DNA of 64,000 nucleotides from contig JACTAT010000368.1 of assembly GCA_014526335.1 (NCBI GenBank), forward strand, positions 472,261 through 536,260, written 5' to 3'. Below are positions 20,254 to 61,895 of this stretch, piece by piece (position 1 is the stretch's first letter; each line of letters starts with the position of its first letter). The notes beneath the pieces were generated by a model. That model did not search any database. It had not been told where the DNA came from and saw only the letters and a program-made list of their open reading frames with translations. Position numbers and translations under genes: made by a program. The stretch is from Chrysaora quinquecirrha (taxonomy: Eukaryota; Cnidaria; Scyphozoa; Semaeostomeae; Pelagiidae).

Positions 20254-21708
20254 CTAAACACGAAGTGCACCCCAAGGAGTAGTGTCTGGCAAATATCGAT
20301 GTTGTCGCAGTCTTCTTGGTCGATTTCTGTTGAAACCATCATTTTCGACCTCATCCATTACACTGGAATCAGAATCTGAATACGTATAATCGCTGCCGTC
20401 TGAAAGTTCACTTTCACTTGAATTCAATTCTTCATCGGATGTTGTCTTTGGGATGGGTTTATTTTGAAATCCATTGTCGACAACAGGTAGAAGGCGATCG
20501 TGGTGTACTATCTTTCGTTCCTTGCGAGAGTTCTCGATCTGAAAATTTACACCGTTCGGTAACTTAGCTATGATCGTCCATGGACCTTCTCTGCGGGGTG
20601 CCAATTTGCGGTTTTCGCCTGTCTTATAATGCTTTATTTTCAGCCAAACTTGCTGACCCTCAGTGTAATCGATAAAACGGAGATCTCGATTATAATGTTG
20701 CTGCATCTTCCGCTTACTAATCTCCAAAGTATCTACTACATTAGAGAAGATATCTTTCAATAACAAACTGGTTGCATATTGGAAGTCTGCTGGCAGAATT
20801 TCGTCCTGCTGGTCTGGTGTGGCATTGTCGAAAGCAATGTCTTGAGGTAAGATGACGGATCTACTGAAAACCACGTTGTAGGAAAAGCAGTGAGTTGCTT
20901 TGCTTTCGCTGGCGTTTAAAGCGAACACTAATCCAGGCAATATGGAACGCCATTTGATTTGTTGAAGGCAACGATGTAACAAAACAGCACGCAATAAATC
21001 CTTGACAGTGCGGATATTTCGCTCAGCAAAGCCATTACCCTGACTATGATACGCAGAAGATATACGCTTTTCAATTCCGAGCTTATTACAGACATGTGCC
21101 ATAATTTCTCCGTCGACATTTGAGCCTTGATCTGACAGGAGATAGAGAGGGCTGCCATGAACATAAATCCAATGTCTAAGTAAGGCATCAACTATTTTTG
21201 GTGCTGTTTGATCTTTTAAAGGTACAGCTTGGACGAATTTCGAAAAAATATCGCCAATGAGCAAGATATATTGATAGCCATCGTGATTTTTAGGTAAATA
21301 GGCGATATCGATAGAAAGAAATTGCATCGGTGCATTCGGGATAAACATTTTCGTAAGTGGTGCTTTGGGTGGAGATGTGGCGCACTTTGTTTTCTGACAG
21401 GTCTGACAGGTTTCACAGCCTTGACAAAACGACTTGATGTAATTGAACATACTTGGCCAATAATAACGGTCTTTTAACAACGAATACACTTTGTCGGTGC
21501 CAAAATGAGCAATATTGTGGTATTCTGTGACGATAACTTTTCGTAAGGAAGGAGGAATGACAGGGCGACCGGATTTTGTAAGCAAACCATCACTGACACG
21601 CAGCTGCAACTGAACTCTTTTCAATTTGCCTGATGAAATGTTTTCTCTGTTCAGAACACATTTTGTGGCATCTGAAATCAAGGGATCTCGCGATTGTTCC
21701 TCTTTCAA
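20254..21708 (-). CDS. Gypsy integrase region (pol C-terminus)
   Basis: 484 open codons, the only undamaged part of this pol. They show the HHCC zinc motif (YHNIAH, then FCQGCETC), the DDE core (SIDIAYLPKN, LLSDQGSNVD, GNGFAERNIRT), and a C-terminal GPY/F module (REGPWTIIAKLPNGVNFQI, VHHDRLLP). An acidic Ser/Asp-rich tail follows. In an intact element it inserts the cDNA into the genome. The upstream RNase H is broken, so this stretch is unlikely to be made as part of Gag-Pol. The real upstream boundary is not this ATG. Confidence 0.85.
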   Translation of the reverse strand: MKEEQSRDPLISDATKCVLNRENISSGKLKRVQLQLRVSDGLLTKSGRPVIPPSLRKVIVTEYHNIAHFGTDKVYSLLKDRYYWPSMFNYIKSFCQGCETCQTCQKTKCATSPPKAPLTKMFIPNAPMQFLSIDIAYLPKNHDGYQYILLIGDIFSKFVQAVPLKDQTAPKIVDALLRHWIYVHGSPLYLLSDQGSNVDGEIMAHVCNKLGIEKRISSAYHSQGNGFAERNIRTVKDLLRAVLLHRCLQQIKWRSILPGLVFALNASESKATHCFSYNVVFSRSVILPQDIAFDNATPDQQDEILPADFQYATSLLLKDIFSNVVDTLEISKRKMQQHYNRDLRFIDYTEGQQVWLKIKHYKTGENRKLAPRREGPWTIIAKLPNGVNFQIENSRKERKIVHHDRLLPVVDNGFQNKPIPKTTSDEELNSSESELSDGSDYTYSDSDSSVMDEVENDGFNRNRPRRLRQHRYLPDTTPWGALRV

Positions 21709-22000
21709 CTGAACGCGAAAACTATCCTGATTAACGAACAGAGCATATACCTTTTCCTCAAAGTCGGTTGATGGCTGAACTTGACTTGCCGCTTGATTTC
21801 GCGATAGGGCATCGGCTTTGATATCGAGTTTACCCGGAATGTATTGGATGGAATAGTCAAACTCTTCTAACTCAGATAGCCAACGAGCGAACTTACCACG
21901 TGGATCCTTCTGTTCACGCAGATGTGTAAGAGGATTATGGTCAGACTTTCAAACAAATTTGTGCCTGCAAGATAAACGTGTCAATGTCTGACTGCGCACA
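21709..22000 (-). pseudogene. Gypsy RNase H C-terminal part with stop and frameshift
   Basis: Conceptual translation in two frames gives KEAFALVCAVRH, then TGA in place of the usual Trp, then a shift near 21,945, then LTHLREQKDPRGKFARWL-type sequence and IPGKLDIKADALSRN. It joins the RT fragment to the integrase frame. Confidence 0.7.
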
Positions 22001-22855
22001 CTAGAGCGAATGCTTCCTTGTGGTTGCCGACCAGTTCTTTTGCGAAGTTTGTAACGCTGTAGAGAAGTACGCTATTGAATGTATGCGATCATCGCTTCCA
22101 ACTTGTGATAAAACTCCGCCAACTGCATGGTTGCTATCATCAACTTCGAGAATAAACGGTTTTCCTAATTGCGGGAAGCTTAAAACTGGCTGGGATGACA
22201 GTTTCTGTTTTAAAACAGAGAAGGCAGCTTCACAGGAATCATCCCATTGGAAAGGAACAGTTTCGCTAGTTAGCTTGTTTAAAGGTTGACAAATATCGGC
22301 GAAGTTCTGAATAAACGACCTGTAAAATCCGGCTAAACCTAGAAATCCTTTTAATTCCTTCCTAGTTTCTGGGCGTTTATAATTGTCAATTGCTTCGGTA
22401 AGACGGGTTTGTGGCTTAATTCCTCGATTTAAAAGCTGAAAACCTAGAAAATTAACCTTGTCGCTGGCGAAAACACACTTTGAAAGCTTAAGCGATATCC
22501 CCGACGATTGCAATCGTTGGAACACTTGTTCAAGATTATGGAGATGTTCTTGGAAATTTCCACTGAAGATTACAATGTCGTCCATGTAAGCTAAGACGCG
22601 ATCTGAAGGAAGTCCTGATAAAGTGATATCCATCATCCATTGGTAGGATGCTCCCGCGTTACATAGTCCATATGGCGTGACGTTGAATTGAAATATCCCA
22701 GTTGTCCAGAATTTTGCTCCATGCATTTTGTCGATCACGTCACGAATATGTGGTAGCGGGTAGGAATCCTTCTTGGTGACGTTATTAAGCCCACGAAAAT
22801 CGCAAACAAAACGCAATCGTCTTTCTTTTTTACGAGGATAACTGGGGCATTCCAC
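22001..22855 (-). pseudogene. Gypsy reverse transcriptase/RNase H, lacking RT motif A
   Basis: The fragment shows RFVCDFRGLNNVT, then GAKFWTT joined directly to GIFQFNVTPYGLCNA. Between them the usual LDLxSGY block with a catalytic Asp, about 30 residues, is absent. YMDD (22,578-22,589) and the thumb (LGFQLLNRGI, GFLGLAGFYR) are present, then the RNase H start (FILEVDDSNHAVGGVLSQ). Loss of motif A makes the enzyme inactive. The frame differs from the upstream protease frame. Confidence 0.8.
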
Positions 22856-23847
22856 GGCGATGCAGATGGTCGAATGATGCCGTTATCAAGCATTTGTTGC
22901 ACTTGATTGCTTACTTCTTTGTTCCGAGCGTGGGGAATACGATACGGCTTCATTCGCACTGGTTGAGCGTCCTCTGTGATTATACGATGCGTCATATTCC
23001 GTACGGGTGTCGGTTTCCTTGGATTAGAAGCAAAAATATCTCCGTATTTGGAAAATAATGCCATTAACTGATCTTTTTCATTAGCAGAGATGTCATTGCC
23101 GTGAAATACATTCGACTGAAGACTTCTTGGATTCTTGGTTTCATTTAAATCGACTTTGGAAACAGTTTCGCTCACCTTGGTTAAATTACCAACGTATTTC
23201 CTGGAATGCACTGTTATATTGTCATTGTTAACATTCAATAAGGTAATCTGGAAAACACCATCTAAATCTGGGATTACCCGACAACGTGTAACGTACACAC
23301 CCATTACTCCAACGATAGGCTTTGGCTCAAAATCTGCAGTTATCAAAGATAAGGAGTTACTGCATTTGACATTAACGATGCTTTCGGAACGTGGAGGCAA
23401 AAAAACACTGTTTTGTACTCTGACAGGCTCTTTTGCTTTTGAAGAAACACATAAAAACCACTCTTTACTCAGTTTTACTTTATTATCGATCATGGCAAAC
23501 TCGACTGTTCCAAAATTTGAAAGGAAATCTTTGCCCAATAATACATGTTTGTACGTTTTGGCATTGAGAACTTTCATATTTTGCTTCATGCTTACACTGC
23601 CCAAGGTTATTGTCACTAACACAGATCCGATTATATCCATTGCATGACCAGATGCATCGACCAAGTCATGATTACTTGCGATAATATTTGTGTCTAAACT
23701 TAGTGTTTGTAAGCTGCCGAGATCAATTAAAGAGCAACTGGCTCCGGTGTCTAATAGAGCGTTTACGTTCTTGTTATCAAACTTAACGTTAAGAACAGCA
23801 GAAAACTCGTCAGCAAAATTACAAGTTTCTTTGTGGCCGTCGGCTAG
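22735..23847 (-). pseudogene. Gypsy protease and RT N-terminus
   Basis: The open frame from the codon after TGA (23,848-23,850) contains NALLDTGASCSLIDLG (aspartic protease active site, 23,740-23,751) and LLGKDFL. It then runs through GIIRPSASPWNAPVILVKKKDD, the RT entry block. The frame is lost soon after, with the RT continuing in the other frame from about 22,855. Confidence 0.75.
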
Positions 23848-28851: not shown

Positions 28852-31530
28852 TTGAATGGAGGGGAGTTAGAGGCCAAGAAGATACAAAACGAAGTCAGTG
28901 GAATTCGTTTGCCGAAAATGGAACTGAAGACGTTCGATGGCAATGTTCTGAAGTGGCACGAGTTCTGGGAGTGCTTTGAACACGGAGTGCACAACAATCA
29001 AGGATTGCCTGAACAGCAGAAACTGCAGTATCTGAAGAGCTGCCTAAAGGGAGCTGCGTTTGTAACAGTTTCAGATTTAGACATGAAAGGTGACCAGTAC
29101 CAAGCTGCTGTTGCTCTCTTAAAAGAAAGATATGGACAGAAGAACGTGCTCAGGAAGGCTCATTTTGATGGCCTTGAAAGAATTACGCCACTGCAGAATA
29201 CACATGAGCTCTACAAGCTGAAAAGACTTTACGAAGAGGTAGAAAGTCATTACAAAGCATTGCAAGCGATCAATGTGAAACCAATTGAATACTCAGCTAC
29301 GAGGGTACCGAAGATAATGAGAAAGCTACCTGTTGACGTCAGAATCAAGCTGAATGAAGGCATGGCCGAAAATGAAGATTTGACGATTGAAGAACTGGTA
29401 GATGGCCTTAGAAAGGCAGTAAAGTATTTGAGGTGTGGTGTCCAACAAGCAGATCGAAGATCAGAATCACAAAGACCAAGGGACAGAAGAGAAGATAACC
29501 CCCGGAGGAGTGAAATATCTTCAGGAGCTACCCTGGTGGCATCAGAGTCAAAACAAAAGTGTGCACTCTGCCTAGGGCCGCATCAGTCCAAAGACTGCAA
29601 GAAGTATATGACTGTGAAGGCCAGAAAAGATGTTTTGAAGACGTTCAAGAGATGTTTTGGCTGCTTGAAGAAGGGCCATATCATCAAGGAATGCCGAACA
29701 GTAAAGACTTGCAGCATTTGTTCAAAAGGGAAACACAGTGAAGAAATTTGTGATTCACCCAAAGAAGAGGTGAAAGAACCAACTGGAATAATACGTGCAA
29801 AGAGAAAAAGCCCCACAGCTGTGATTGCCTACCAAACTCGGATAGCAAAGGTCAGAAGCAAAGATGGCAGAGAAGTGAGCTGCAGAGTGTCGCTGGACTC
29901 AGGCAGTGCAAGAAGTTTCATCACGCAGAAACTCGTAGAAGAAATTGGTAGCAACCCAGTTGGTCACAGAACCTCACAACAATTTGAAGACCTGAATGGA
30001 GCCGTACAGGAAGTGGAATCCGAACACCACAAAATAGAAATTAGAAGTCTTGATGGGACTTACGAGACGTCCATGGAAGTAAAGACTCTTCCGACGATCA
30101 CCACGGTTGGAAATCCAGCTCCAATCTTGGTAAAGAAGAAATTTCAACATATGAAGGGCATCTTTTTCACTGATGTTTCAGATGAGGATTTTCTAGAGGT
30201 CCAGATGCTCATTGGAAGTCAGCATCTAGCAGATTTGCAGACTGGAGACTTAAGAAAGGGCAGACCAGGAGAACCAGTAGCAGTGAAGACGAAGCTTGGT
30301 TGGACAATGATGGGAACAACAGCCTTCAGTATGACGGAAGGAGCTGAAGGAACTTCTGAACCAACAAACCTGGTCATAGATGCCCCTAAAGAAGTCAAAG
30401 ATGTTGTATCCAAGATGTGGGATCTAGAAACATTGGGAATAAAGGAAGAAGATCTTGTTCATATGGCCTTTCAAGAAGAAATAAAGTTCGAAAATGGCAG
30501 ATACACCGCCCCGCTGCTTTGGAGAGAAGGGAACTTTCAGGTTCCCCTGAACAGACAGTTGTCAGAAGGCAGACTGAAGAGCCAGCTGAAGAAGTTGCAG
30601 AAAAGTCCCGAAGTACTAAACGAATATAATAACATCATACAGCAGCAGCTAGAGAATGGAATTTTCGAAAAGGCTCCAGTGAAACCAACAGGCCAGCGTG
30701 TTTCTTACATCCCACATTTGGCTGTTGTCAGAGAAGAGGCAGCTACTACAAAAGTCAGAGTGGTATACGATGCGTCTGCCAAGAGTTCTAAAAGAATGAA
30801 GTCGCTGAACGATTGTCTTCATACTGGTCCATCATTGAACCCGCTGTTATATTCAGTTCTTTTGAGATTCAGGATGCACAGATTGGTCCTCATCGCAGAC
30901 ATTAAGCAAGCTTTTCTGCAGATAGGAATCGATCCAGCTGACAGAGATGCCCTGAGATTCCTGTGGGTGAAGAATGTAGACGATGAAGACCATCAGATAG
31001 AAGAATACAGATTTACGAGGGTGATATTTGGAGCTGGACCTTCACCATACGTATTAAACGCAACCATCAGACATCACCTGGAGCAGTTCAAAGAAGCTGA
31101 TCCACAGTTCGTAGAAGACATCGAAAACAGTCTGTATGTAGATGACTACATTTCAGGTGGCAGCGATGCTGAAGAGCTCTGCAGAAGAAAGGAAAAGCTG
31201 CAAGAAACCTTTGAGAAAGGAGGATTCTCTCTACGAAAATGGTACTGCAACGACAAAGACGTATGCCAGCAGATAAACTCAGATGCAACTGATGAAACCA
31301 GAAAGGTCCTTGGAATTCTATGGGATCCAACGTATGATACAATGAAGATCAACCTAGATATGGAAACCCCAAAACAGCCGATCACAAAAAGGGCAGTTTT
31401 GAGTTCTCTGGCAGCAATCTTCGATCCACTTGGTGTATCAGGGCCTATTGTGATGAAAGCTAGAGTACTATTCCAAGAAATTTGTGCTAAAGGAAGGCAA
31501 TGGAATGGTTGTTGGAAATTAAAGAACTGA
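28852..31530 (+). pseudogene. BEL gag-pol part 1: gag, protease, RT
   Basis: 892 open codons. Order: DUF1759-type gag (LKTFDGNVLKWHEFWECF), knuckle-like Cys blocks (CALCLGPHQSKDC, CFGCLKKGHIIKEC), protease (SLDSGSARSFI), and RT (VRVVYDASAKSS, ADIKQAFLQIGI, YVDDYISGG). RNase H starts beyond LAAIFDPLG. It ends at 31,530 in a spurious frame. The natural continuation is in another frame from about 31,505, and the expected linker is partly missing, so there was a small deletion with frameshift. Confidence 0.85.
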
Positions 31531-33743
31531 AGTATCTAACTTTGCCGAGGACTATCAGTGAAACCTCAGATGATCCGGCAGATTTTGAGCTACACGTCTT
31601 TTGTGACGCCAGTGCGATGGGCTATTGTGCAGCTGCGTACCTGGTTTATGAAGGCGTTGAAGGCAAGAAAAGTAGGCTCTTAACAGCGAAATCCAGATTG
31701 CCCCCCCTGAAAAAATTAACGATCCCAAGGTTGGAGCTACTGTCAGCGAGAACAGGGGCAAAGCTTGCAAATACCATCCTGAAAGCCTTAGGAGTCAAGA
31801 TCAACAACGTCTATATGTGGTTGGACAGTTTAACAGCACTTTATTGGATAGAGAATAAAGGAGCATGGAAGCCTTACGTTGGCAACAGAACGAAAGAGAT
31901 TCACGAGCTGGTTCCTGGTGCTGTGTGGAGTCACTGCCCAACAAGGTTAAACCTAAGCGACCTTGGAACAAGGGGAGCAAGTGCAGCAAAGCTCCAGCAC
32001 TGTACGCTATGGTGGGAAGGACCAGAATTCTTGAAAGAAGACCAAGATTCTTGGCCAGAGCAATCAAGCGAACTGAAACCGGCAGACGAAGCGATTGTGG
32101 AAGAAAAGAGTCCCAGTCTGTTGGTGAAAACAGAGGGGAGTGTTGGTTTGCAAAACGTTATAGAACTGGCAAGATTCAGCAGCCTGAAGAAACTATTACG
32201 CTGCACCGCAAGAGTGTTTCGCTTTGTCGAAAACTGTAGAAAGCAGAAAGATCAGCGATCGGTGGGTGCTAACCTAACTTCAGAAGAGTTGAGGAGCGTA
32301 AAGATACGTTGGATTCAATCCATACAACATGAGATGACAGGATGCAAAGAATTCAAACAACGCTCTCAAGATCTGGGTGTGTTTCAACATGAAGATGGCT
32401 TCTTACGTTGTGGTGGGAGACTGAGAAACTCCGATTTGAACTTTGAACAGAAGCATCCTATTCTGCTACCAACGAAGCACAGATTCACAGATCTGGTGGT
32501 TCTTGACTGTCACGTGAAAGTCGGACACGAGAAGATTGGGAGAACCTTAGCTGAAGTTAGAGCGGAATTTTGGGTACCCAGAGGAAGACAAGTAGTGAAG
32601 TCAATTGTCAAAAGTTGCAGACTGTGCAAGATCTATTCAGCAAAATCGATGGCAAGTCCACAGATGGCACCTCTACCAGACACAAGAGCAAGGAGAACAC
32701 GGCCTTTTCAACACACAGGTGTTGACTTTGCTGGCCCACTGTATGTGAAGTCAGGGAAAGAAACGGTCAAGGCATACATAACGCTCTTCACATGCGCAAC
32801 GACAAGGGCAGTTCATCTGGAACTAGCTGAAGATATGACAGCCAGTGTATTTAGAATGACTCTGGAGAAGTTTGTTGCAGCCTGGGGTATGCCAAATCTG
32901 ATGATCAGCGATAATGCGTCAACATTCAAAACGACTGCATTGCAACTGAAGAAGTTATTCGACCATCCAGAAATACAAGAGTATTTGCAGTCAAATTTTC
33001 TGACTTGGAGATTTAACTTGGCCCTCGCAGCCTGGTGGGGAGGATGGTTCGAGAAGATGGTTGGTTTAACTAAAAACATTCTGAGGAAAACACTTGGAAA
33101 GGCTCTGCTCAACTTCCCAGAAATGGAGGTAGTATTAAAGAAAACTCAGGCCATTCTGAATAATAGACCCTTGTTTTATCAAGGAGAAGAGCTCGAAGAA
33201 GAAGTCCTGACGCCAAATCATCTTGTTTATGGCCAGAGATTACCACTATTTCCAGATATCCCTGAAGACATCCTAGAAGAACCCGATGAAGTCAACAGTA
33301 GAGTCAAACACATCGAAACGAAGTTAAATCAACTATGGGACCGATGGAGCAAGGAATATTTGATTGGATTGCGGGAATTCCACAAATCTAAAGATACCCG
33401 AAAAGGAGCCATGTATGAATTGCAACCTGGTGATATTGTTCTAATTGAAAACAAAGGAACTCATCGAGGTACCTGGAAGAAAGGAAGGATATTGAAGTTG
33501 TTGGTAGGAAAGGATGGCGTGACAAGAGGAGTAGCGATGGCAACCGTAGTCAATGGTCACAAGAGGAGACTGGAGAGAGCTGTCCAACAGATTTATCCTT
33601 TGGAAATTCGTGGAAATCAGAACACGGAAAGGAGACAGGAAGATAAACAGATGCTTAGAAGGAGCAAACGAGTCGCAGCCGCCAATGCGCGAGCAATAAT
33701 CAGCACAATTGTAGAAGAAGTCAATCAAGATCAAGTTGATTGA
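31500..33743 (+). pseudogene. BEL pol part 2: RNase H, integrase, Pao C-terminal domain
   Basis: 747 open codons. RNase H-like (VFCDASAMGYCAAAYLVY, IPRLELLSAR, LDSLTALYWI), then the integrase zinc motif (HVKVGHEKIG, CRLCKI), and the DDE core (GVDFAGPLYV, MISDNASTF, WWGGWFEKMV). The C-terminal domain (LQPGDIVLIENKG, LERAVQQIYPLEI) is found in Pao elements. It ends 11 nt before the polypurine tract. It is out of frame with part 1. Confidence 0.88.
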
Positions 33744-51112: not shown

Positions 51113-51425
51113 ATTACGATTCGAAATTCGTGTGACGTCATCAAAACGCAAAACTGATACCTTGAGTCTTAACCGTTTCGTGCATAAATCTTTCTTTTGA
51201 TGTGTTCAGTGTTACTTTTAGGATAAAAGCATCATGTTCTCGGTCACGTACGCTAATTTTTGTCATTTCAAATCTTAAATTATGAAGAATGCTCGTAATT
51301 TCAATTGCGATGCAGCTAGGGTTCCGAACTACTATGAATGTTGAAAAAGATGCAAAAGATAAAACATTTTCTGCTTACTTTCTCTGAGAATGGAAATATG
51401 ATTGAGCTAGATAGATCTAAGCACT
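51113..51425. repeat. Inverted repeat, left arm
   Basis: The sequence from gtgtgacgtcatcaaaacgc to gaatggaaatatgattgagc is matched in reverse at 53,499-53,786, about 85-90% identical by eye. The minisatellite at 52.2-53.4 kb lies between the arms. Confidence 0.8.
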
Positions 51426-53415: not shown

Positions 53416-53498
53416 ACATAGGTGTCTGCCGTCTTCTCGAACATTTACGGCTACATAATTCAAATTAAAGACCGTCGTCATAAAAAGTAATTCGCTCT

Positions 53499-53786
53499 AT
53501 CTGGCTCAATCATATTACCATTCTCAGAGAAAGTAAGCAGAAAATGTTTTATCTTTTGCATCTTTTTCAACATTCATGATAGTTCGGAGCCCTAGCTGTA
53601 TCGCAATTAAAATTACGAGCATTCTTCGTAATTTAAGGTTTGAAATGCAAAAATTAGCGTACGTGACCAAGAACATGATGCTTTTATCCTAAAAGTAACG
53701 CTGAACACATCAAAAGAAATATTTATGCACGAAACGGTTAAGACTCAAAATATCAGTTTTGCGTTTTGATGACGTCACACAAATTT
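53499..53786. repeat. Inverted repeat, right arm
   Basis: Reverse complement of 51,113-51,425. It stops exactly where the 5.6-kb element begins: the left arm continues with cgaatcg where this copy has GAGGGTCC. That marks the element's insertion point. Confidence 0.8.
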
Positions 53787-54308
53787 GAGGGTCCTGAAGG
53801 GGGGTGTCTAATCCCATTTCCCAGTCTATTTTTCTTCAAAATCCCATTTCCAGTCTTCATAATCCCATTCCCAGTCTATGTTTTTTTTAAAATCCCATTG
53901 TATGTCATATGATTTTATGTTCGCAAACCCCTTCTCTCCTAATTTAGTATTTTGTTTTACTAGTTATTTTAGCGCACTTAAGGTTCATTTAGTTAAGATT
54001 ATAATTCATGAACCATAATTGTCTTCTATTCGGTCACAAAACAGATGTCGGTTTGGTGACGGACCACGATGTTCAATACTCCTTTCTACTATGGGCAGTT
54101 CCAGTTAGAGCAGTTATGACTGGATGGCGCATCGTCACCCTCAGTCCGGGATACGTCATCAACATAGGCCAAATATGTGTGTATGTAGCATGTGTATATA
54201 TCACTATGAAACTCTAATTAAACAATATATATTAAAAAAGTAAATACTGCTTGATTATATATATGTTTTAAGTAAAATTTAAAGTAAATCTTAAATACCT
54301 CTAAAGAT

Positions 54309-57300
54309 CTACATCTGAATGAAGTCTGTCATCCTGCGCGTTAGTCGTCTGACTCTACCAAGACGCGTGGGTTGTATCAAGTTTATTGCGGTGTGGAGGG
54401 ACTGGTCTGAAGCAGATTCACTGTCATCGTCACTAGAATCACTTGAATCACTGCTACTGAAAGTATCCTCTGGTTCAAAGTCTTCAAACTGTTCCTGTGT
54501 TTGTTCATATTGTGAAAGTTCGTTATTTTCAAGATCTTCAGATGGATCACTGGTTGACGTGGTGAGAAGTTGCAAGTTTAGGGGGTTCAAAGTTGACTCG
54601 GTTTCGTATAGGTTCAATGGGAGTGTGCCTGCTCTGTCCTTTGTGTTGTCTTGTCGGACGTTTCGCTGCCTCACCGACTTCCCATGCCTCTTTGCCCATG
54701 CTCTCATTTGGGCTTCTTCATTTCTGGTCACTTTTGAAGCAGGAGGCTTGGGTATGTGGATTTTTGGCAGCGTAACAGCACCAGTTGTAGGAAGCTTGTA
54801 ATAGGAGCCAGGGTGTGTGTAGTATGTTGCTGCCCATTTCGAGACACGCTTTACTGCTTCTTCAATTGACGAACCAAATATTAAGGCATACTCGTACAGA
54901 CTGAATGTGTCTCTCTTGAAATGAGTAACTGCATGCTGATTTTCAACATGTAGGGTTAGAAGTGCTTCCAAGTTCAGCTGAAGATTAAACCCTGGGTATG
55001 TGGAGAGTTCCTTGATGTTAGACTCAGTACTTTGCAGCGATTTCTTCAGAAGCTCCAGAGACTTTGAACACTTGGTTGAAACAGTGCCTTCAGGGCCATT
55101 GGTGACAGAGTTTTCACTTAGGGATTGAAGTTCCTTAGCTTTCGCAGAACATGTGTGTACATACTGAAGTGTTTGGTTTACCATTTCAATCGCCTCTATC
55201 ACTGTATGATGCGAGCCCGTTTCAGATTTGCCTTTTGGATGGATATTAAAGGCTAAAAGCAAGGTCTGTAAATTACTAAGGAAGTCAACAATTCCCTGCA
55301 GAGGTTGGTTGATCATCTTAACAGAGCCAGAGCCAGAATCTGCAACATAGATGTTTCTGTCGAATTCAACACAAATTCCAACTGGTTGACACAACTTTGA
55401 ATGTGCTGCTGGCCCATCAACATCTCCTTTGCCATTGCCTCCTGAAATCACTGAAACAATACCATTGTCAAAGAGTTTGATACAGTGGTCTTCACAATAA
55501 ACTAAGCCTCTCCCTAACCAAGATACAGATGTTGCTTTCAGTGATGCTGGTGACATATTTGAGCCAGTGGTTAATGATCTTGTTATTTCCTGGGATAGAT
55601 CATGTATGTAGATTTTCCCATCTACGCAAATCGCCAGCTTGTCTCCGGACAATGCTAAGGATGTAAGATCTTGCCACTGATCTGAGTACTTCATCACCAT
55701 GGTGGATGTTCCTACAACTCCAACACCATCAAATTTTATTGCCACGGTGTAAATGGCTTTTTTAGAGTTTGATGCGGCAACAAGCATGTCGCCATTTCCT
55801 TGGCATAAAGACGTAAACTGTAAGTCCTCATTCAGGGCCACGATTCCTACAGTACCACACTTCTTGTGAACACTTTGTTGCTGTGCAAGGTGACGCTGTA
55901 TTATTGTCTGTAGAGTCTTTAAGGTCATAGTTGCATTACAGTTTATGTTAATGTGCTGCTGAATGAAGGCTACAGCCGCCGCTTTACTTCTAAATTGGGT
56001 GGACTTGATTGTAGTTTTACCTTCTATGTCAACAAATAGTATGCCCTTCTTCCCACATACTAGAGCAGCACCATTGACGTAGCAAAGGCTAAAGCCATTT
56101 GTATCCACATTTCTGTGTAGAACTTTACTGTCAGCCGGACTATGAAGCCGCACTTTCACTAGATCTGACGATCTTGTTTTTGAATTCCAATTGAGAAATA
56201 TGAGGTTCCCAGTACCTGCCGGGCAAACTGCAAAGGGATGCTCATACAATCCCCTCTTATTTGTCTCGCTTATTCTGTACCTGTCTGGAAGGATACTGAT
56301 AGTTAAAAACATGTGTTTGATGGAATCTAGATATTCTATCAATTTCGTGGCAGTTAGTAGGATAAGCGGTTCTGTTGCCATTCTGTCTTTGTTTCTGACT
56401 GACTCTGCAGTTAACATGCTTTGGAGAGCTCCAACTATCTCCACAGGAGATTCACTTCTCAGCATTCTAAGAGTTCCTAGTGTGCTTCTGTCTCCCTCTC
56501 CTAGAATCAGAAACCAGTTACTCCAAGAGCATTTGTAAGTTTTGGCGAGATGAACAACGTCGGGAAACACAACCAGATACTCTAGGAACCGTATTGGCTC
56601 CTCAGCAACAAGATCTGCCATTTTACGATTTCCTGATTCACAATCAATGCTCCAGGTGAGGACAATGAATTTCACACACTGAACATGATTTTTTAAGCAC
56701 CTCCTGCAAGCCCTCAATGACGGGCAATAGCTAATTTGTCCTTCTTGCTTACATTTATCACAAACAGTTTTCGATTCCAAGCATGTTTCACATACACTAG
56801 ACGTACAGCATTCACTATCAACCATAGTATCTGATGCGTTTTCGAGACACCCCTTACAACATTGCATCTGCATTACTTCCTTAACAACATTTTCTTTTAA
56901 ACTTTCCCCAGTCTTGCCCTTTTTACTGCAATAAGATACTCCCACTGCTAACGATGATGTTTTAGGAGAATTGGTTAATAGAGTGACAACTGCTTCAGTT
57001 GCAATGTTTTCTTTCAGATACTTTGTAAGTTCAGGATCCTTTTCATTGTTAGCTTTAACATAGTCTATCTTGATATTACCACTTGCTAGTCCAACTACTG
57101 TTTTCTGTGTAGGGTCAAATTGTAGACCTGGCTGTAATGCAGTCCCATCATTTTCTGCATGGACGCTTAAAACTTTCAAGACATCACAATCAATAACAGC
57201 AGATTCCCTACTTTCTATAATCTTGTGGAATGTTTGCATAAGTGGATTAAGAACACCACTTTCTGTAGTGTAACCACTGCTGTGTTTGGTCAGAGTTCTG

Positions 57301-59046
57301 TCTGATGGACCACCTAGGTTTGCTACCATGTTATCTGAGGTAAACACACCCCCTCGACCTGAACCATGCCACATTGGTCCTCTTATCATATTTACAGTGC
57401 TCTGACCTCCCAGCCACTTGAGAGTTTTGAAAAACTCTATCACTTCAGGATCCCAACTGTAATTGGTGGGTGTAACATATACCTGTAACACATTCTTCAG
57501 GTATTTATAAAATATACCATCCTTTTGAATTCTTCCACTTGCAACAAGCTTATCTAGAGTCAAAGCCACCTCATCTGCATGTTCAACACTTATTGGAATC
57601 ATGTTATATTTTGTGTAGTCTAGATCATCATATTTGATGTACTCGTCTTTACATTCTTCAACTACACAATCACCATCATCTTCTATAAGTAAATCTGATT
57701 CATCATCATCAGTGTCAAGATAAAAACCATCAGGGTCTTCAACTTCCTCAACATCTTCGATAACAGCAATATCTGCAACAAATCCAATATTTGCAATCAA
57801 GTCTGAACCGGTTTTAATAGAATCAGTCTCCTCAAGTCCAAGTACATCTGCATCTTGTTCAAAGTTAATAAACTCATCAGTCATTCCAGTTATTGTTGCC
57901 TCATTGTTACTTGTATCGCAACCAAGTATTGAAGGTAATCTTAAACAAAACAAAAAGAACCCAAATGTTTCAATTGCTGTTATTCAAAAATGAATCTTAA
58001 AAACATTTCATGAGTATTCAACAGATAAACAAAACAAAATGACAATATTTAATTCTTCATATTTAAATAACTATGCTACAATGAATGGTGTACAATGTTT
58101 TTGTAATGTTTGTGTTAATCAATCAGAATATAAAAAAAGAATGTCCAATTTACTTGATGGGGTCTACTCACTCATCATTTTCTGTAGGGCTGTCTTGTGA
58201 GACTTGTGGTTGAGCTACTGTGCCAGTAGTTTCAGCATCATCATTTGAAATAGACCTTTTTCTTTTAACAGCTGGTTCAAAGAACTCTTCAATCCTTTTA
58301 GTTTTTGAAGTGTCAAGCTTAGCAGTACAAGTATGAACACGATTGAAATATTTAATATGTCCTTCTGCAGATCTTTTACACCTATCGAGTTTGGGTGACT
58401 TTCCACACAATAAGCAAACAATAGACTTCCCATCCTCTGACAGTCTAGCATTATCGGTTTGTTGCAGTAATTCTTTCAAACGTTCAGTGTCAGATGCCCG
58501 TTTATTGACTTTATTACCGTGATTTCTTGATCCCTTCTTCCCTTTTTTTGTCATAATTGTTTTAGTAGATTCTTTGGGGTCTCCATTCTTGGAAGACTTA
58601 GAGGACTGACCAGAAGCAGAACCAGCATTATCATCATTATTGGTCTCATTGACATTGGACTCTGAAGATTTTTCGTATTCTTCCAGGACAATATTAAGTG
58701 TACCTTTTTCAAAGCTCACAATGCGTTGAATTACTCTAACACTAAGTGATTTACAGTCGCTCTTGACAAACATGGCCAGCTGATCGTCGGTTCTAAGGAC
58801 AAATGGCGCTTTTTTTGGTTCACCTTGTTGGATGAAGTCGATGTAGTACATCTCTATTGCGTAATCTGCAAAACCACGTTTCTTGCTTGACTCCAGTATA
58901 CCTGCCATACGGCAAATGGTTTTCGAAAGACAACTAGCGGAGATTTTGAGTGGAATGTCTAGTTTGCAATTTTCAGTGTGAATTGATATATTTTTCGCAT
59001 TAATGTACTTAATCTCAACAACGACAGTGCGAGTATTCATCGCCAT
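54309..59046 (-). CDS. Transposase-like protein, about 1,501 residues: zinc finger, DDE-like core with Cys-rich insert, beta-propeller
   Basis: Exons 58172-59046 and 54309-57939. A consensus donor (GA|GTGAGT) and a pyrimidine-rich acceptor (tttgtttaag|A) join in phase 2, giving 1,502 codons with no stop. Order: a folded N-terminus (1-125), a low-complexity linker with basic patches, and a C2H2-like finger (CLLCGK...HIKYFNRVH, about 211-238). Next come a PIP-box-like TKRIEEFF (249-256) and an acidic stretch. The core follows: ENDGTALQPGLQFDP (Asp about 556), a Cys-rich insert (652-713), SIDCESGNRKM (Asp about 724) and FPDVVHLAK (750-758). An NHL/beta-propeller-like part (about 987-1172, QPVGICVEFDRNIYVADSG) precedes LHVENQHAV (Glu about 1291), a Ser/Asp tail and a basic end. 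The layout resembles DDE transposases of the P/KDZ type, but assignment of the catalytic residues is inference. The start ATG is at 59,046. Confidence 0.75.
57940..58171 (-). other. Intron of the transposase-like gene
   Basis: 232 bp, GTGAGT...TTTAAG, AT-rich, with in-frame stops. Without splicing the two open frames would be separate proteins of about 292 and 1,214 residues. Splicing joins TENDE to LPSILGC. Confidence 0.75.
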
Positions 59047-59395
59047 CTTGGTCAATTGGGTAAGTACTTTGTGTGTGCATGACTTAGTGTGATCTGCTTG
59101 GGGATTGGGAACTACATTCTCATTGAAATGACATGTTCAGTGGTCTGTGTGACAATGACAGACTAGAAAGGTCTGAAAATGTTATTTATTACATTCAAAT
59201 ATTAAACATTGAAAGCTACTTATTAAAATTCATTTTCTGTGTAAGTCTAGAATGGTAAAAAGTGAATCCCATTCCCATCTGGTGTTCTATTCCCCATTCC
59301 CAGGGAACGAAATCCCAGTCCTTGTACATCCAATCCCATTTTCCCAGCCCAAAATTAGGCCAATCCCATTCCCAATTTACCCCTTCAGGACCCTC

Positions 59396-59443
59396 AACTA
59401 ACCAACTAACTAACTAACTAACTCACTCACTCACTAACCAACG
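59396..59443. repeat. Short CTAA/CTCA microsatellite
   Basis: aactaaccaactaactaact followed by ctcactcactcactaacc, directly at the right end of the large element. Confidence 0.85.
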
Positions 59444-59766
59444 CTTGAACAATGGAAAACGTGTAACAATAGTATAAGCATCTCAAGAATGCTCTTAGAG
59501 CCATTGTCTCGGCAATTGATGCGCAATTAGCGGTTGGCTTTTCACAACGGCGGCCTGCAAACGGCTTTGTCAATCTTAGGTCATGTGACAATTGTTCTAC
59601 TGACTCGTAATAGTTCACTATGAGTCATTGTTGTTTACTTTATAAACGATGGCAAATTGCCACATTGGTTTAGTTAATGACATTTCAAACATTCTCATCA
59701 TCGATCATAGAGTCTGGGCAAGAGCGGCAATTTCAAAACACTTTTCAAAGCAAATCGTCATCATTC

Positions 59767-59804
<38 letters not shown>

Positions 59805-59806
<2 letters not shown>

Positions 59807-60290
59807 GATTACCATCTTTGACGATGTGGCTGTGGCAAGATCTAAAGGAACGGCACCACCACCACAAACACCCCTACAACCATCACCACGACCACCCCTA
59901 TCACCACCACCACAACCACCCCTACAACCATCACCACGACCACCCTTATCACCACGACCGGCCCCCCCATCACCACCACCACAACCACCCCTACAACCAT
60001 CACCACGATCACTCCTATCACAACCACCACAACCACCCCTACCTTCAGCACCACAACCACCTCTACCACCACCACCACCACACCCACCCTACCACCACAA
60101 TCACCCCCTACCAACCAGCATCATGGTCATCGTGGTCATCAACATCATCATCATAACCACCACCATTATCATAATAATCATTATCGTCATCGTTGTGCAT
60201 ACCGATAAATATCTTTCATCATTTGACCGAAATAGCTATATTCAACCAGAGTGGTTCTTCGAACATGCCCATAGGGCCCCTATGTTTGAA
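59805..60290. repeat. Dispersed CA/CAT-rich repeat, copy B
   Basis: Same block order and tail as 6,582-7,052, preceded by an (ATC)n run (59,760-59,803). The Pro/His/Thr/Ile-rich open frames in both copies are repeat artefacts. Confidence 0.75.
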
Positions 60291-60365
60291 GTCGCCGTAA
60301 GTGTCGGCATTAATGATATCATTAGCAAAAAGCGATTAATTAACAATAAAAATCAATTAGCAGCA

Positions 60366-61895
60366 TTTTTATGTCCGAAGGACATAATGAGAGGGTGTTT
60401 GTGGAACGCATGTATGTATGTATGTATTCATCCATAGACACACAGACGCTTTTTCTGCCAAAATGTAACAATAGATAAACCACAAATACCAGGAAGTAAA
60501 CTTTGAAGTCGCCGTAATTGGTCATCATTAAAAACAATTATTGGACAAAGGAATTTGTAAACAAGTAGATGATTCATTGTGTCAAGTATTTGGCAGAAGT
60601 TGTCGAAGTTCTTATTTACTTTAGGTAATTGGTTTTTTATCCAATCAGAAAATTCTGAAAGTTCTCATTTGCATAATAAGACAAGAGTCGAATCTTCTGT
60701 TGCGTTCTGGTTGTGATTGGCATATTTTTATGTCCGAAGGACATAATGAGAGGGTGTTTGTGGAACGCATGTATGTATGTATGTATCCATCCATAGACAC
60801 ACAGACACTTTTTCTGCCAAAATGTAACAATAGATAAACCACAAATTCGAGGAAGTAAACTTTGAAGTCGCCGTAATTGGTCATCACGAAAACCAACCAT
60901 TTGACAAAGGAATTTGTAAACAAGTAGATGATTCATTGTGTCAAGTATTTGGCAGAAGTTGTTGAAGTTCTTATTTACTGGAGCTAATTGGATTTTTTAT
61001 CCAATCAGAAAATTCTGAAAGTTCTCATTTGCATAATGAGACTAGAAACGTTTTCTGAGACATTTTACTATGACGTGACTCAGTTATTGTCCAGAAGATT
61101 CTCGAACTCGCTACAAAATATGCTCCTTAGAACAGATAGGTTGCTAATACCGTAACGGTTATGAACGATGATTATGATGATGATGATCATAATCATGATA
61201 ACGTTGATAATAATAAGAATGGCATAATGATGATTGTTTCGTTGGTCAGCATGATGATGATGATACTGATGTTGATTATGTTGATGATGTTGATGATGAC
61301 GATGACAATGATGATGATGATGATGCTGATGATGATGATGATGACAATGATGATGATGATATCGGTGATAATGATGAGAATCACATAGGCCTAATGATGA
61401 TTGTTGGGCTGACGATAATTATGATGGTGATGATGATGATCATGTTGATGATGATGATAACGATAAAAATTTTGATGATGATAACCATTTCGATGATGAT
61501 GATGATTGTGATGGTGATTATTGTCCTTCGGACATTTCGATAGCGCGGCTATGTTTATGTCCGAAGGACATAATGAGAGGGTGTTTGTGGAACGCATGTA
61601 TGTATCCATCCATAGACACACGGACGCTTTTCTGCCAAAATGTAACAACAGATAAACCACAAATACCAGGAAGTAAACTTTGAAGTCGCCGTAATTGGTC
61701 ATCATGAAAACCAACTGTTTGACAAAGGAATTTGTAAACACGTTGATGATTCATTGTGCCAAGTATTTGGCAGAAGTTGTCGAAGTTCTTATTTACTGGA
61801 GATAATTTGATTTTTTATCCAATCAGAAAATTCTGAAAGTTCTCATTTGCATAATAAGACAAGAGTCGAATCTTCTGTTGCGTTCTGGATATGTT
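60366..61895. repeat. Three copies of a repeat of about 345 bp starting TTATGTCCGAAGGACATAATGAG
   Basis: Copies at 60,366-60,725, 60,726-61,060 and 61,555-61,895. Each begins with the hairpin TTATGTCC-GAA-GGACATAA, then gagggtgtttgtggaacgca and a TATG run. All then carry gataaaccacaaat, gtaaactttgaagtcgccgt, gatgattcattgtg and gttctcatttgcataat. A GAT microsatellite separates copies 2 and 3. High identity suggests recent local duplication. Confidence 0.85.
61160..61535. repeat. GAT microsatellite, array 1
   Basis: A degenerate (GAT)n/(GATGAC)n block ends in tgtccttcggacatttcgat, directly before repeat copy 3. A Met/Asp-rich frame is an artefact. Confidence 0.9.

Follow-up and report, generated by a model that had tools for sequence, protein, structure and literature searches.

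The 64,000-nucleotide stretch of the scyphozoan Chrysaora quinquecirrha analysed here (contig JACTAT010000368.1, positions 472,261 to 536,260; hereafter the window) contains, at 53787-59395, an element that is very probably an autonomous cut-and-paste DNA transposon, encoding a transposase whose RNase H-like core is related to those of the P element and THAP9 and is predicted to carry a beta-propeller in its insertion region. The group to which it belongs is best read as a P-related but distinct, superfamily-level lineage that was recently mobile; it may represent a branch of DNA transposons that has yet to be described, Repbase and Dfam having lain outside our comparison.

The element was delimited from one terminal inverted repeat (TIR) to the other, and the same ends were found on other copies (Table 1). 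The first-pass annotation, made from the letters of the window, had proposed a perfect pair of inverted termini, same-strand subterminal repeats, and one spliced gene free of lesions, and all three held up. The two TIRs are identical at 16 of 16 bases, the match growing to 18 with the adjoining TT/AA; eight of the window's ten plus-strand AATCCCA words lie within the element, four at each end, and the three on the minus strand are all outside it. The single minus-strand gene is split into two exons; it counts 1,502 codons, the last of them the stop, for a product of 1,501 amino acids, and has no internal stop. No third TIR site with three or fewer mismatches was found within the window. It had also been proposed that the left edge interrupts an arm of another inverted repeat, which was borne out in part: an arm at 51124-51425 pairs with 53486-53786 (91-96% complementary), and the right arm breaks off precisely where the element's left TIR starts, but a continuation of the left arm beyond the element was not found in 59396-61500. 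The stretch between these arms is partly low-complexity, CCTATG-like sequence.

Table 1. Features of the element and its gene, and complete relatives on other contigs of the assembly.
Feature	Position or contig	Strand	Remarks
Whole element	53787..59395	.	5,609 bp, TIR to TIR
Left TIR, GAGGGTCCTGAAGGGG	53787..53802	+	Gene's 3' side; on deletion derivatives exactly or with mismatches
Right TIR	59380..59395	-	Reverse complement of left TIR
Left subterminal repeats	53810..53897	+	Four AATCCCA words
Right subterminal repeats	59265..59368	+	Four AATCCCA words, same strand as left
Exon 1	59046-58172	-	Residues 1-291 plus two bases
Intron	58171-57940	-	GTGAGT...AAG (GT...AG)
Exon 2	57939-54309	-	Through stop codon
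CxxC...H...C finger-like stretch	58327..58416	-	Residues 211-240; putative DNA-binding module; motif by eye
D556, first proposed catalytic Asp (NDGTAL)	57147..57149	-	45/45 rows; 7/7 other loci
Cys-rich insert between the two Asps	56676..56861	-	Residues 652-713; nine Cys
D724, second proposed catalytic Asp (DCES)	56643..56645	-	49/49 rows; 9/9 other loci
DxxH motif (DVVH)	56550..56561	-	Residues 752-755; D752 54/55, H755 53/55 rows
Predicted beta-propeller inside RNase H-like core	55308..56306	-	Residues 837-1169
SAP-like helical insert within propeller	55860..55985	-	Residues 944-985; model helices
E1291, proposed catalytic Glu (HVENQHA)	54942..54944	-	19/19 rows; 8/8 other loci
F1 complete elements	C2, C246, C179		6,815, 6,825 and 6,786 bp; ~98.8% identical over 6.8 kb
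F6 complete element	C620		6,238 bp; open frame 1,182 codons
F2 complete element	C364		6,642 bp
F3 complete element	C507		7,586 bp

The source assembly (328 Mb in 740 contigs) was searched with the left 414 bp of the element, and 40 matches of 92 candidates were scored: the window, two long matches (contig C282, 89%, and contig C439, 83%), and 37 that cover nothing but the terminal 91-107 bases. The termini thus recur on further copies, whose existence had been named beforehand as a check on the transposon reading. Facing termini lie 409-506 bp apart at at least 16 places and mark internally deleted derivatives. One copy of 447 bp combines 316 bp from the right end of the element (81%) with 92 bp from its left end (95%), and is therefore an internal deletion derivative; one derivative also has 31 bases that match exon 1 at 90%. 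The closest derivative pairs are 98.7-99.5% identical. Three copies of 409-410 bp on different contigs (L024:844-1252, L025:732-1141, and L026:778-1186) are 100% identical over their aligned bases. On contig C439, at about 247000-327000, six left-end matches (92-94%) lie on one strand within 80 kb, which suggests an array of repeated units carrying the transposon end.

Searching the assembly at the protein level, we obtained 47 matches (42 of 121 candidates were scored); those other than the window, C282 and C439 are 25-49% identical and spread over many loci. Looking for the point where near-identical copies diverge, we found sharp ends in four of six groups (F1, F2, F4, and F6), in which GAGGG or GGGGG is followed, after a short spacer, by GGG(G), with same-strand CCC or CCG repeats next to the ends in F1, F2, and F6. 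F3 and F5 had no such end at that divergence point, and GAGGG ends were also recognised in F3 and F7. Extending the flanks delimited six complete relatives, 6.2-7.6 kb long, which lie on six contigs, come from four families, and have ends that resemble those of the window element, their TIRs being 15-16 bp long and starting with GAGGG or GGGGG. TIRs of 15-16 bp, arranged GAGGG..CCCTC or GGGGG..CCCCC, occur in every one of the five families with both ends.

Target-site duplications were counted over 23 two-ended elements, comprising the six relatives, 16 derivatives, and the window copy. This excludes L001, L004, and L008 (coinciding with the window, L011, and L012), matches with no end pair (L002, L003, L005-L007, L009, L010, L021, and L022), and those with one recognisable end (L031 of F7, L039/L043/L058 of F4, C361 of F2, and C442 of F6). 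Exact 6-bp duplications flank 16 of the 23: all six relatives (TTCATA, TTTAAT, TTTGAA, CTAAAG, ATTTAA, and ATTATT), 10 of the 16 derivatives, but not the window copy. In 20,000 re-pairings of the flanks, the mean number of matches was 0.0 and the maximum 0. Only a length of six stands out, and no element matched at 8/8. The duplicated bases are 85% A+T (82/96), as against 61% in the 20-base flanks (389/640; p 1.7e-7), and the pooled target is approximately TTTAAA and symmetric.

Three database searches yielded 61 distinct relatives of the encoded protein and five other NHL-repeat proteins; the named relatives are hypothetical or uncharacterized proteins of Stylophora, Paramuricea, Oculina, Exaiptasia, Desmophyllum, Porites, and Mytilus. 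The alignment of 59 rows consists of 58 of these relatives and the window protein, excluding P0003 (a model with missing parts), P0014 (internal duplication), P0021 (mis-predicted), and the five NHL-repeat proteins (P0006, P0007, P0041, P0042, and P0066). Conservation was counted over rows with letters at the position, and separately over those of nine other loci in the same genome (27-37% identical to the window protein) that cover it. In the core tree, the assembly rows require at least four label changes and so fall into more than one lineage, several in all; the window protein clusters with database rows, among them a Paramuricea protein.

The succession of an Asp in GLQFDP, an Asp in DCESGNRKM, PDVVH, and a late Glu had led the first-pass annotation to an RNase H-fold transposase. 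The last three are strongly conserved (Table 1), D752 and H755 of the DxxH motif being present in nine and eight of the nine other loci, respectively. The Asp of GLQFDP (D567) is itself conserved in 45/45 rows, but D556 of DGTAL, 11 residues upstream, is the likely catalytic residue. Only E1291 and E1319 among the late acidic residues are invariant in the alignment, and E1319 is replaced by Thr in F1. A Cys-rich insert of about 60 residues had also been noted correctly: each of its nine Cys is kept in 49-52 of 51-52 rows, and all nine in eight of the nine other loci (C713 is Phe in one), and it is probably zinc-binding. A canonical PIP box carries Gln; the PIP-box-like motif that had been pointed out, TKRIEEFF at residues 249-256, exists but lacks that residue. 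Neither the finger-like stretch nor the exon 1 product matched a Pfam family above cut-off, and the exon 1 product had no match in PDB at E<=1.

A structure model covering residues 401-1400 (predicted local distance difference test, pLDDT, 82.5; predicted template modelling score, pTM, 0.82) places D556, D724, the DxxH motif, and E1291 in an RNase H-like core that is split by a propeller between DxxH and the Glu; both the fold and the position of the propeller had been anticipated from the letters, and both appear in this prediction. The modelled propeller has about six NHL-like blades with helices on both flanks, DxxH directly follows a beta strand, and the Glu is preceded by a long insertion. 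The SAP profile matches six of the 59 members, the best at 17.8 bits, below the cut-off of 23.9. Foldseek aligned the model with 6pe2_A (E 4.1e-6, prob 1.00) in 438 columns against a chain of 456 residues. The 50 rows listed by VIA-align were all propellers, with no transposase row, which has no bearing against the core fold. PF21787, the P-type RNase H N-terminal region, was matched in seven of ten core segments (best E 4.8e-7) and was above cut-off in P0013.

Several results weigh against an autonomous, P-related transposon at this locus. The window copy lacks a target duplication (AAATTT / AACTAA), and an exact duplication is absent from six of the 16 derivatives, including the identical L024-L026. 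Stops or frame breaks interrupt all three F1 copies. With 12 in-frame stops in the C282 copy and a mere fragment at C439, there is no second intact copy of the window's family among the scored matches. The His of DxxH is Gln in one of the nine other loci. A first structure model, built from five sequences, was poor (pLDDT 41) and was set aside; the 6pe2 match has a template modelling score of 0.45 by target length, 9% identity, and a root-mean-square deviation of 7.4, its extent being a column count alone. The window protein by itself had no PF21787 match, and the core profile matched no chain among the PDB sequences.

The missing duplication may be a matter of later change, as the window copy adjoins an arm of the other inverted repeat on its left and an AACT microsatellite on its right, and one flank has therefore probably been altered. 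That copy's lack of a duplication, and an open frame kept intact while the two closest copies decayed, are also what a domesticated host gene flanked by old transposon ends would present. We consider this very unlikely, as the ends are shared with the element's own deletion derivatives, including the one with the exon 1 match, and the relatives possess both ends, duplications, and a gene. Recent mobility of the group is supported at the sequence level by derivatives that are 98-99.5% identical and have exact 6-bp duplications, and by the F1 copies at ~98.8%; the supposition that the element is active or recently active thus stands for the group and is conjectural for the window copy itself, which lacks a duplication.

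In P transposase the triad is D230, D303, and E531, a D(2)H motif follows beta5, the insertion is a helical GTP-binding domain, and duplications are 8 bp long (PMC7776569, PMC8230255; these and the papers cited below are quoted from excerpts). With P and THAP9 the present group shares the core order of two Asps, C/DxxH behind a strand, a long insertion, and the Glu, as well as shortened copies that share ends with the full element. It might, then, belong to the P superfamily proper as an atypical member, in which the propeller, the cysteines, and the 6-bp duplications are lineage-specific changes to a P-derived core. The PF21787 matches and the Foldseek match to 6pe2 speak for this, as do the DxxH right behind a beta strand and the long insertion ahead of the Glu. 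When a GTP-binding insertion was looked for, the propeller was found to occupy the region and no profile for such an insertion stood among the 20 families listed; yet helices flank the propeller, the 6pe2 alignment spans its 438 columns, and these helices might be the P insertion. Under Repbase's convergence rule, moreover, the group might be filed with P. Even so, we regard membership of P proper as possible but doubtful. Over its full length the window protein matched no THAP family at E<=10, and THAP, P insertion, and KDZ families were absent among the 20 Pfam families listed for the 59 members (E<=0.1), many of which lack the N-terminus. Duplications are 6 bp, not 8 bp, in every family with both ends. 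A C/DxxH motif is also found in Dada, hAT, Kolobok, and MuDR (PMC3706591, PMC10045372) and therefore does not decide membership. Unlike P and THAP9, the group has a Cys-rich insert between the Asps, termini that are mostly GAGGG, and, in the region where P has its helical GTP-binding domain, a predicted propeller with a SAP-like insert. Judged on its domain content, its termini, and the length of its duplications, the group is distinct from P.

KDZ transposases are associated with cysteine clusters, and KDZ had been named beside P/THAP as a possible likeness; P/THAP proved the closer, with no KDZ profile matched among the 59 members. Dada elements resemble the group in their DDE residues, DxxH, and 6-7-bp duplications (PMC3706591). 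A KDZ or Dada-type transposon is nevertheless extremely unlikely here. Zisupton (KDZ) duplications are 8 bp in the excerpt of PMC12730594, as opposed to 6 bp; in that of PMC3706591, no TIRs were found in Dada, which inserts into small-RNA genes and has an exonuclease domain before DxxH in two species, whereas the present elements have TIRs of 15-16 bp. IS3EU also makes 6-bp duplications, but its termini, in the source excerpt, are TA..TA or TAYGG rather than GA..TC or GG..CC. Coral CMITE elements, in the excerpt of PMC2872659, are TTAA/piggyBac-like and hence not these elements.

For a P-related but distinct transposon, which remains our preferred reading, the N-terminal finger would bind the termini and subterminal CCC repeats, and the transposase would cut the ends and join them, with a 6-bp stagger, to an AT-rich target near TTTAAA. 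The propeller and its SAP-like insert may help to hold the ends or to choose the target, and the same enzyme could mobilise the deleted copies. Transib duplications are 5 bp. A Transib-type transposase works with a six-bladed propeller protein in RAG1-RAG2, where the RAG2 propeller takes part in binding the recombination signal (PMC4411706). RAG2, however, is a separate protein of the Kelch type, whereas the NHL-like propeller here is predicted to be inserted in the catalytic domain. By analogy, the RAG pair is the nearest functional parallel. That the group is a new superfamily, in which a SAP-bearing propeller within a P-like core selects an AT-rich 6-bp target as a one-polypeptide counterpart of RAG1-RAG2, we put at slightly below an even chance. 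Our searches of the open-access literature turned up no title or abstract on a 6-bp group, or on a transposase in which a propeller, an NHL, or a SAP module is present, Repbase being outside that search.

To our knowledge, few kinds of RNase H transposase insertion domain have been solved. Such domains take part in forming hairpins, in joining to the target, and in the use of cofactors (PMC8230255). If our reading is correct, the propeller and the neighbouring conserved Cys-rich insert would widen what the RNase H fold tolerates, and RAG1-RAG2 could be compared with a natural protein of a single chain. An origin is also suggested for proteins that bear only the names hypothetical or uncharacterized in coral, gorgonian, anemone, and mussel records.

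Elsewhere in the window, two long overlapping open frames at 28852-33743 look by eye like a BEL/Pao-kind retrotransposon polyprotein, and minus-strand open frames at 20254-23664 like pieces of a Gypsy-like retrotransposon. An open frame at 243-1661 appears, again by eye, to contain C2H2 zinc fingers and Ser/Gly-rich stretches.

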